Positions 10,842-14,956 of a stretch of 53,172 nt of DNA are shown piece after piece. The stretch comes from Dysgonomonas sp. PH5-45 (lineage in GTDB: Bacteria; Bacteroidota; Bacteroidia; Bacteroidales; Dysgonomonadaceae). The notes under the pieces were generated by a model. That model saw only the letters and a list, made by a program, of their open reading frames with translations. It searched no databases and was not told the origin of the DNA. The position numbers were made by a program, and so were the translations under genes. Location: NCBI RefSeq assembly GCF_029893235.1, contig NZ_JARXWE010000021.1, positions 1-53,172 on the forward strand, given 5' to 3'. Within the stretch, counting starts at the first letter, position 1, and each line of letters begins with the position of its first letter.

Positions 10842-10917
10842 GACTCCGTAGCTCAGTTGGTAGAGCAAATGACTCTTAATCATTGGGTCGAGAGTTCGAG
10901 CCTCTCCGGGGTCACCA
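10842..10917 (+). tRNA. tRNA-Lys (anticodon CTT)
   Basis: A complete 76-nucleotide cloverleaf is present. The acceptor GACTCCG pairs with CGGGGTC (one G-T pair). The D stem is GCTC/GAGC. The anticodon stem AATGA/TCATT encloses the loop CTCTTAA with anticodon CTT, reading AAG. The T stem GAGAG/CTCTC encloses TTCGAGC. The 3' CCA is encoded. Confidence 0.96.
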
Positions 10918-12856: not shown

Positions 12857-13363
12857 TTACTCTTTAATTATCTTGTTTATGTCGATAAATTTATCCCGCA
12901 CCCTTTTTCGGGCTCTTGATAAATTAACTGTCACAGCAGACACTTGTGTTCCAACAATTTCGGCAATCTCCGCCAATTCATATCCTTCAACATCGCGCAT
13001 CAGTATAATCTGCCGTTGCAATTCGGGCAATGTTTCTATGATTTTTTTTACTAGCCTAACGCTATCATTCAACTCTGTTCGGAAGTGAGGCGTTTCAGAA
13101 CTTTCGGCTATCTGCAAACCGTCGATAGGAACATTATACCGTCCACTCCTTAATTTATCAATACAAATATTCTTTACGGTTTGGATGGCAAAACCCTGAA
13201 CGTTTGGATGGACAAGTAGTTGCGACCTCACACTCCACAAGCGCAGCATTGCTTCTTGCACAGCATCTTCAGCATCACTGTTAGTAGCCAAAATATTCCT
13301 TGCCAGATTATACATTTTATCCCGCAGAGGCATTACTACCAATTTAAACTGTTTTATCTCCAT
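12857..13363 (-). CDS. ECF-type RNA polymerase sigma factor
   Basis: The 168-residue protein has sigma region 2 (LVMPLRDKMYNLARNIL, then SDAEDAVQEAMLRLW, residues 9-44) and region 4 (LPELQRQIILMRDVEGYELAEIAEI, about 115-139, followed by the recognition helix SAVTVNLSRARKRVR). It would direct RNA polymerase to promoters of its own operon and others when released by the downstream membrane protein. Gene order is sigma, anti-sigma, exported protein, outer-membrane barrel. The gene is divergent from metK, with 324 bases between the two start codons. Confidence 0.92.
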   Translation of the reverse strand: MEIKQFKLVVMPLRDKMYNLARNILATNSDAEDAVQEAMLRLWSVRSQLLVHPNVQGFAIQTVKNICIDKLRSGRYNVPIDGLQIAESSETPHFRTELNDSVRLVKKIIETLPELQRQIILMRDVEGYELAEIAEIVGTQVSAVTVNLSRARKRVRDKFIDINKIIKE

Positions 13364-13524
13364 CCTGCATTATATAACGAAGCTCATCAATATTTATAAC
13401 ATGATAACTGGTTTTATTTTTCTTTAAAGACACACTCCAATGCCACATAATAATGACTATCAATTAGTTGATTAAATATATAAGATTTTATATATTTTTA
13501 ATTCTATTTTTTAGCATAAAGATA

Positions 13525-13532
13525 TAACTTTG
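13525..13532 (+). promoter_or_regulatory. Candidate -7 box of metK
   Basis: TAACTTTG matches TAnnTTTG. Transcription would start near 13539, just before the SAM-II-like RNA, leaving a leader of about 150 bases. The -33 region is T-rich without a clear TTG. Confidence 0.55.
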
Positions 13533-13546
13533 CATTCAGTTTAGAA

Positions 13547-13597
13547 TGTGGAAAGATTTGTCTGCTTGCAACCACAGTAAAAAATGCTAAAACCGCC
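13547..13597 (+). promoter_or_regulatory. SAM-II-like riboswitch candidate upstream of metK
   Basis: The leader contains the ordered elements of the SAM-II aptamer as I remember it. P1 is UGUGG (13547-13551) with CCACA (13572-13576). The loop contains GAUUUG (13555-13560) and GCUUGCA (13564-13570). An A-rich linker is followed by GCUAAAA (13586-13592). UUGC (13566-13569) can pair with GC-AA of GCUAA to give the pseudoknot. The second half of the pseudoknot (the usual CC/GG pairing) is not evident by eye. Position between promoter and the S-adenosylmethionine synthetase gene strongly suits a SAM sensor. Its 3' end is 90 bases from the ATG, farther than is typical. Confidence 0.6.
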
Positions 13598-13610
13598 TTT
13601 TATTACTTCT

Positions 13611-13629
13611 TTGTACAATACTTGTACAA
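13611..13629 (+). promoter_or_regulatory. 19-bp palindrome in the metK leader
   Basis: TTGTACAATACTTGTACAA consists of two copies of the self-complementary octamer TTGTACAA separated by three bases. It can be a protein-binding operator, or in RNA an 8-bp hairpin with a UAC loop. It lies between the SAM-II-like RNA and the start codon, where an expression platform would be expected. No T tract follows, so it is not a terminator. Confidence 0.5.
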
Positions 13630-13687
13630 ACATCTCACAGACAAAACCTACCACTCATTAATTTTATATTTAAAAAATTATATTATT

Positions 13688-14956
13688 ATGAGCTATTTAT
13701 TTACATCGGAATCGGTGTCGGAAGGACATCCCGATAAAGTTGCCGATCAAATCTCGGATGCACTACTTGACGAATTTCTGGCACACGACCCTCAGTCGAA
13801 AGTGGCTTGCGAAACACTTGTAACAACCGGACAGGTTGTCCTTGCCGGCGAAGTAAAATCGAAAGCGTATATCGACGTTCAGGAAACTGCCCGCAAAGTA
13901 ATAGAGCGTATCGGTTATACAAAGAGCGAGTATCAGTTCGAAGCTAAATCGTGCGGTGTTCTGTCGGCCATTCACGAGCAATCGGACGACATCAACCGGG
14001 GAGTTGACCAAAAAGCCGATCCTATGGATCAAGGAGCAGGAGACCAAGGTATGATGTTCGGATATGCAACCAGCGAAACCGATAATTACATGCCACTGGC
14101 TTTAGACCTATCGCACGCCTTGCTGATAGAACTTGCCAAAATACGCAAAAACGAAACTGCTTTGATGCCATACTTGCGCCCAGATGCTAAATCGCAGGTA
14201 ACAATCGAGTACGACGATAATGGTTCACCGTTGCGTATCGACACAATTGTAATCTCTACACAACACGACGAGTTTGGTCCCGACCAAGCGATGCAGGATA
14301 AAATCAGGGAAGATGTGATAAACATACTGATTCCGCGTGTCAAGGAGAATTATAAATTCAGGGAAGATATCACCCGTCTGTTTAACGACAACATTATTTA
14401 TCACGTAAATCCTACCGGAAAATTTGTTATCGGTGGGCCTCACGGAGATACAGGCCTCACAGGCCGTAAAATCATTGTAGATACTTATGGCGGCAAAGGT
14501 GCTCACGGAGGTGGTGCATTCTCGGGCAAAGACCCTTCGAAGGTAGACCGTTCGGCTGCGTATGCTTCGCGCCACATTGCCAAAAACCTTGTCGCGGCAG
14601 GTGTATCGCCCGAAGTTTTAGTGCAGGTTTCGTATGCTATCGGTGTTGCCAAACCTATGAACATTTACATCAACACTTACGGAAAGAGCAATATTTCACT
14701 GACCGATGGGCAAATAGCCAAAAAAGTTGAGGCTATCTTCGATATGCGTCCTAAAGCCATAGAAGAAAGACTGAAACTGAGAAATCCTATTTACTCAGAA
14801 ACAGCAGCTTACGGACATATGGGACGCACTCCCGAAACCGTAACAAAGGTATTTACATCAAGATATACCCAAGAACCTATTAAAAAAACAATAGAATTAT
14901 TTACTTGGGAAAAACTTGATTTTGTTGATACAATAAAAAAGGAATTTAACCTGTAA
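13688..14956 (+). CDS. metK: S-adenosylmethionine synthetase
   Basis: MetK makes S-adenosylmethionine from methionine and ATP in the cytoplasm. I start the protein at the ATG at 13688 ([21 protein letters not shown]), since upstream codons in this frame are not conserved-looking and lie within the leader. The 422-residue enzyme has GHPDKVADQ (residues 13-21), the ATP-binding [12 protein letters not shown] block, [14 protein letters not shown], and the phosphate loop [19 protein letters not shown]. The gene has a long leader with a SAM-II-like element and a palindrome, pointing to feedback control by its product. It ends at a strong terminator that overlaps the next promoter. Confidence 0.97.

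Follow-up and report, generated by a model that had tools for sequence, protein, structure and literature searches.

SAM-II riboswitches of the Bacteroides group have been in print since 2005, Bacteroides thetaiotaomicron being among the examples (PMC1273637, accessible part). The same source covers the SAM-II riboswitches of Alphaproteobacteria (RF00521, SAM_alpha) and reports that a disrupted P2 abolished the response of the A. tumefaciens SAM-II RNA. The model 'SAM-II long loops, Bacteroidetes, marine, RF01726' has been in print since 2010 (Weinberg et al., PMC2864571, accessible part). The S. meliloti metA riboswitch, which belongs to the same class as the element described here, controls a start 74 nt away, has predicted alternative folds without SAM and uses a Shine-Dalgarno sequence located inside the riboswitch (PMC9373788, accessible part); none was identified in the leader studied here. 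The supplement of PMC2864571 aside, no study of the SAM-II expression platform in Bacteroidota was found in the literature, as far as the accessible text of the sources extends, and priority for the distal strand described below is not claimed. SAM-II is not named in the accessible parts of the transcriptome papers on B. theta and F. psychrophilum, and those of PMC12121620, PMC7160235 and PMC9689429 contain nothing on a Bacteroidota SAM-II platform.

The window analysed here is the whole stretch of 53,172 nucleotides from Dysgonomonas sp. PH5-45 (contig NZ_JARXWE010000021.1). A search of the whole window with Rfam 15 gave a match to RF01726 (SAM-II, "long loops") at 13542-13600 on the forward strand (67 bits, threshold 44, E 7.8e-11), aligned over the full model (positions 1-60 of 60); with such a score over the whole window, the aptamer pieces are not a matter of chance. 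The genome holds one RF01726 copy. The initial annotation had called this leader SAM-II-like and had suggested the RF00521 and SAM-V covariance models as a check. Membership was rejected for both, RF00521 reaching 22.1 bits for a threshold of 36 and SAM-V giving 0 matches at E up to 10 when 13400-13800 was compared with all Rfam 15 families, and the model passed over threshold was RF01726, the Bacteroidetes/marine SAM-II model. Apart from RF01726 and RF00521, the sole match on this segment up to E 10 was unrelated (E 2.7). The assignment to SAM-II is thus borne out by the covariance-model match, the metK context and conservation in related leaders, and "like" was too cautious for an aptamer that passes the threshold of a catalogued family. 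The leader is very probably a SAM-II (RF01726) riboswitch exerting feedback control of metK. The features of the locus are as follows.

13525..13532, + strand, Bacteroidota-type -7 promoter box TAACTTTG (sequence reading, and enrichment in related leaders); TAnnTTTG is taken here to be the Bacteroidota -7 consensus
13542..13600, + strand, SAM-II aptamer, RF01726 (67 bits, gathering score 44)
13547..13551, + strand, P1 5' strand UGUGG, pairing with 13572-13576 (both sides change in relatives)
13555..13570, + strand, conserved loop GAUUUG-UCUGC-UUGCA, including the 5' strand of pseudoknot P2 (RF01726 alignment; 94 of 95 family loci); its Us presumably form the SAM site
13572..13576, + strand, P1 3' strand CCACA (sequence reading, structure count)
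13586..13591, + strand, GCUAAA, the P2b 3' strand (RF01726 alignment)
13592..13687, + strand, leader after the aptamer, rich in C and poor in G (20 C and 4 G over its 96 bases)
13610..13630, + strand, 9-bp hairpin UUUGUACAA-UAC-UUGUACAAA between the aptamer and the distal strand (pair probabilities 0.55-1.0)
13638..13645, + strand, distal strand CAGACAAA, candidate anti-aptamer strand (perfect complement of loop 13557-13564, UUUGUCUG)
13651..13654, + strand, CCAC, competing for GUGG of the P1 5' strand (pair probabilities 0.75-0.96 with 13548-13551, free fold)
13688..14956, + strand, metK, S-adenosylmethionine synthetase, with its ATG at 13688 (TIGR01034 equivalog, 505.3 bits, cut-off 309.4)

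The pieces named in the initial annotation (UGUGG/CCACA, GAUUUG, GCUUGCA and GCUAAAA) were all located where it had placed them; by sequence reading GAUUUG lies at 13555-13560, GCUUGCA at 13564-13570 and GCUAAAA at 13586-13592. Compared with RF01726, the window has the same sequence, P1 and P2b strands and phylum, but it lacks the consensus CAG just after GCUAAA, the matching strand lying 46 bases downstream and beyond the 60 positions of the model. Compared with RF00521, the order of P1, GAUUUG, UUGCA and GCUAAA is the same, whereas the score is below threshold and the loop is shorter in the window. The aptamer itself is a further copy of a known riboswitch kind, the distal strand being the sole part that is possibly new.

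Two other annotated features of the region are an ECF sigma factor of the PG0214 family (12857-13363, minus strand, divergent from metK; NF058625, 183.2 bits, cut-off 130) and a tRNA-Lys with anticodon CTT (10842-10917). Between the aptamer and metK, two TTGTACAA palindromes stand 11 bases apart (13611-13629). This tandem is unique in the 453 kb of the genome searched, in which the 8-mer has 18 copies overall, the window accounting for 5; apart from the window's own, L041 is the only one of the 213 related leaders to contain the 8-mer. In the RNA the pair forms the 9-bp hairpin, and in the DNA it could be a protein site. The sequence of the hairpin at 13610-13630 occurs only in the window among the 213 leaders, 6 of which have other perfect 9-bp hairpins.

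RF01726 matches were found in 94 of the 101 genomes of the window's family, in 197 of 295 genomes sampled from its order (195 over the cut-off) and in 63 of 395 genomes sampled from its phylum (57 over the cut-off). The 234 stretches represent 231 distinct loci, L232 being empty and L230 and L231 duplicating L128 and L150. A MetK motif lies downstream in 228 of these 231 loci, the misses being L080 (contig end), L174 and L229 (31.9 bits, below threshold). The aptamer pattern matched 215 stretches and left 19 unmatched, 16 of them distinct, of which 15 have the MetK motif. This pattern fixes TTG, TTGC, ACC and TGCTAAA, so that the analysis covers the better conserved leaders.

L080 and L174, for which no metK is shown, were left out of the 215, and the remaining 213 leaders with a readable metK start (94 from the family, 119 from outside) were used for the GCUAAA-ATG spacing, the comparison of C with G, and the P2a and swap-null counts. 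Sets of 209 leaders comprise those of at most 200 bases and were used for the P1 counts, the promoter box, the terminator scan, the open frame and the reach of complements. The tree-disjoint pair test was performed on 207 leaders, openness and leader-to-start pairing on 196 (up to 160 bases), and the duplex-energy shuffle test on 140 of the 209 (one family leader per loop sequence). The pair test on supported branches used a tree of 177 leaders, with both traits in 95 or 69, and the structure count was made on 73 aptamers.

One genome of the window's genus has two RF01726 copies (L024 and L095), each before a frame with the MetK motif SEGHPDK, so that a second metK may be controlled there by a switch of its own. 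In L139, L146 and L153, and in weaker matches at class level, an insert between P1 and GCUAAA gives spans of up to 117 bases; our guess is that such inserts are the origin of the name 'long loops'.

Of the 95 RF01726 loci in the family, 94 have GATTTG, TTGCA and TGCTAAA in this order, one mismatch being tolerated in the latter two motifs, and the two sides of P1 change together, which is the conservation in related metK leaders that the initial annotation had proposed looking for. Among 209 leaders, the P1 core is GUGG/CCAC in 176, GAGG/CCUC in 30 and AUGG/CCAU in 3, counts in which the two inner G-C pairs are fixed by the search pattern and the two outer positions are free or A/T. Four P1 pairs hold in every row of the 73 aptamers, one of them changing on both sides in 8 rows, and the outermost P1 pair holds in 40. 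The P2b pairs are invariant in these aptamers, which were selected by a pattern that fixes their letters, and give no covariation signal either way. The covariation score (0.117) was higher than in all 500 shuffles (mean 0.069); the structure with partners slid by +2 columns scores 0.115, so this score alone is no proof.

The outer stem P2a is a feature of the SAM-II class, and as a pseudoknot stem it cannot be scored by the Infernal model. Directly after GCUAAA, a proximal P2a of at least 3 bp was counted in 80 of the 119 leaders outside the window's family and in 8 of the 94 inside; in the window, no more than 2 bp can be read by eye. RF01726 does not require P2a for membership, 94 of the 101 family genomes being over its threshold. 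The pairing expected after GCUAAA is thus missing in the window, which justifies the doubt about the outer pseudoknot voiced in the initial annotation; its suggestion of a variant applies to the outer part of P2 beside GCUAAA, absent in the window and in most family leaders, and not to the aptamer itself. The same absence counts against a SAM-II switch, as the window's aptamer, lacking a proximal P2a, may not bind SAM (compare the A. tumefaciens P2; PMC1273637, accessible part). A hairpin of the AAAAAAUGC strand with a downstream GCAUUUU was recognised by eye in several family leaders (13576-13607 in the fold of the window).

The initial annotation had placed the leader behind a Bacteroidota promoter, and the box at 13525-13532 agrees with this: of 209 related leaders, 189 have a TAnnTTTG no more than 45 bases 5' of P1, compared with 14 of 917 control windows. 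Given the position of this box, transcription would start close to the 5' end of the aptamer, just 5' of P1. The distance to the ATG, 90 bases from the end of the annotated interval and called unusual for a translational switch, turned out to be typical, the gap between GCUAAA and ATG having a median of 79 bases (middle half 67-112) over the 213 leaders, for 96 in the window.

In the window, loop 13557-13564 and the distal strand 13638-13645 are perfectly complementary over 8 bases (pair probability 0.87-1.0 in the free fold). It is distinctly unlikely that this complement is fortuitous, with the aptamer working through P1 and P2b alone: 8 perfect bases are expected in only 0.3% of mononucleotide shuffles of the window's leader, and such a strand is common in other leaders of the order and class, where it covaries with the loop. 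A chance origin would nevertheless fit the three loci of the same genus (L024, L094 and L095; two genomes), which do not have the distal helix, and the 74 of 93 family leaders in which the loop lacks any perfect 6-base complement.

Strands complementary to the ligand loop turn up repeatedly in leaders from elsewhere in the order and class, and they covary with it. Perfect loop complements of at least 6 bases were counted in 43 of the 119 leaders outside the family, against 8.7 in a swap null (sd 2.5, highest of 300 draws 16), and in 18 of the 94 inside, against 3.8 (sd 1.7, highest 10). Of the 35 leaders whose loop is ATTGA, 30 have CAATC and 2 have CAGTC; of the 20 whose loop is ACTGA, 4 have CAATC and 7 have CAGTC, all four counts being uncorrected for kinship. 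In tree-disjoint pairs with different loops, the own partner was better in 32 and the swapped one in 15, and 7 were tied (Wilcoxon p 0.0009; sign test 0.019). Pairs from outside the family gave 23, 6 and 3, respectively (sign test 0.002). Applied to the proximal P2a, the same test split into 12 for, 11 against and 31 ties, and did not recover even this helix. The independent-pairs tree test of the distal strand had only 3 pairs on supported branches. Single leaders compared with shuffles were mostly non-significant, p being below 0.05 in 37 of 140 by duplex energy and, for the helix score, in 12 of 94 family leaders and 25 of 119 others (medians 0.27 and 0.25).

The reading that we favour, tentatively and with a little less than even confidence, is that the distal strand is an anti-aptamer strand and that the riboswitch works by competition. 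The UUU of GAUUUG is a ligand contact in SAM-II. Competition is favoured by the window's helix, which crosses this UUU, and by the GUGG:CCAC pairing, which takes P1 apart. When SAM is plentiful, it would be bound by the P1/P2b pseudoknot and metK expression would fall; we infer SAM binding and the OFF direction from the riboswitch class (PMC1273637, accessible part). Without SAM, loop 13557-13564 and P1 strand 13548-13551 would pair with 13638-13645 and 13651-13654, and the aptamer would be dissolved. With SAM, P1 and P2b would form first, leaving free the distal strand and the C-rich leader, which would then lower expression by Rho-dependent termination in this C-rich, G-poor segment or by closure of the start region. 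The unconstrained fold of the window (-32.4 kcal/mol) has the distal helix formed and the P1 strand GUGG paired with CCAC 13651-13654; when P1 is formed and the strands of the pseudoknot are left out, the fold reaches -22.2 kcal/mol, a value in which the energy of the pseudoknot and of SAM is not counted.

The distal strand might instead be a P2a displaced 46 bases downstream, GUCUG 13560-13564 pairing with CAGAC 13638-13642 in the SAM-bound state. The CAGAC pairing would then replace the lost proximal P2a, and hairpin 13610-13630 would shorten the loop. If P2 is required, the family needs a substitute, as shown by the counts of proximal P2a given above (8 of 94 against 80 of 119), and 37 of the 44 distal complements from outside the family, and 18 of the 19 from within it, reach the G of GAUUUG beside the loop. 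The window's helix, however, continues through the ligand Us of GAUUUG, and the P1 GUGG is taken by CCAC. Distal strand and P2a use the same loop and should exclude each other, as a switch requires; in leaders from outside the family, a proximal P2a is kept in 32 of the 43 that have a distal strand and in 41 of the 72 that do not, which speaks for competition and against a displaced stem. Inside the family the distal strand brings no change in the proximal one, P2a being missing in 17 of 18 leaders with it and in 59 of 63 without; as nearly all family leaders lack P2a regardless of the distal strand, the latter could serve there as a remote P2a. We consider this displaced stem an unlikely explanation.

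Extended to Bacteroidota SAM-II at large, competition is a possibility to which we give rather less than even weight: a covarying strand about 10-50 bases after GCUAAA would pair with the ligand loop as the competing element, and the window's family would have given up the usual outer stem, the distal strand, where kept, being the only outer partner of the loop.

Two outputs were considered for the competing folds. The first, which seems possible but not probable, is transcriptional: the open, C-rich leader of the SAM-bound RNA would load Rho and lead to termination before metK, and without SAM the distal helix would hide the leader. C minus G is 16 in the window's leader, more than in any other of the 137 leaders, itself included, taken from 453 kb of this genome, for which the mean is -1.1 (sd 5.6). 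Of 213 related leaders, 205 have more C than G; in the 150 bases preceding the aptamer this holds for 106 of the 213. The genome has a rho gene (646.5 bits, cut-off 509.45), and sites resembling intrinsic terminators are rare, with none in 13380-13800 and 3 in 209 related leaders by a simple scan. The signal of the window, however, comes from few G (the fewest of 137) and not from an excess of C, 16% of leaders having as many; its YC dinucleotides are ordinary (8, mean 6.7), and an unstructured start region would likewise give a G-poor leader.

The second output is translational and rather improbable in our estimate: formation of the aptamer would free leader bases that close the start region. 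The predicted openness of this region falls when the aptamer bases may not pair with the leader, from 0.466 to 0.391 in 115 leaders outside the family (shuffled aptamer 0.379) and from 0.494 to 0.422 in 81 inside (shuffled aptamer 0.434). TCCC occurs in 22 of 45 leaders with an ATGGG start against 13 of 70 others (p 0.0008, not corrected for kinship), and leader-to-start pairing outside the family averages -6.85 kcal/mol, against -6.20 for shuffled leaders and -5.39 for swapped starts. The S. meliloti metA riboswitch provides a precedent for action on a start 74 nt away (PMC9373788, accessible part). In the window's family, however, leader-to-start pairing is no better than in shuffles (-5.66 against -5.87 kcal/mol), and among the 115 leaders outside it, comparison with shuffles gives p<0.05 for only 14. 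The shift in openness of the window is small (0.336 to 0.270; shuffled aptamer 0.263), and its start-codon hairpin is present in both predicted folds. Sequestration of the start region was consequently rejected as a general rule, being weak overall and absent in the window's family. A leader peptide or a longer MetK was also rejected: the frame is open back to the aptamer in the window, but in only 34 of 209 leaders.

Shine-Dalgarno pairing is hardly used in Bacteroidota, and the locus bears on how such switches act in a phylum where it is scarce. The covarying distal strand provides a concrete element that can be mutated, and the G-poor leader raises an equally concrete question about Rho. 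If competition by the distal strand is the true mechanism, the expression platform would lie outside the Rfam model, and this would explain control without a Shine-Dalgarno sequence.
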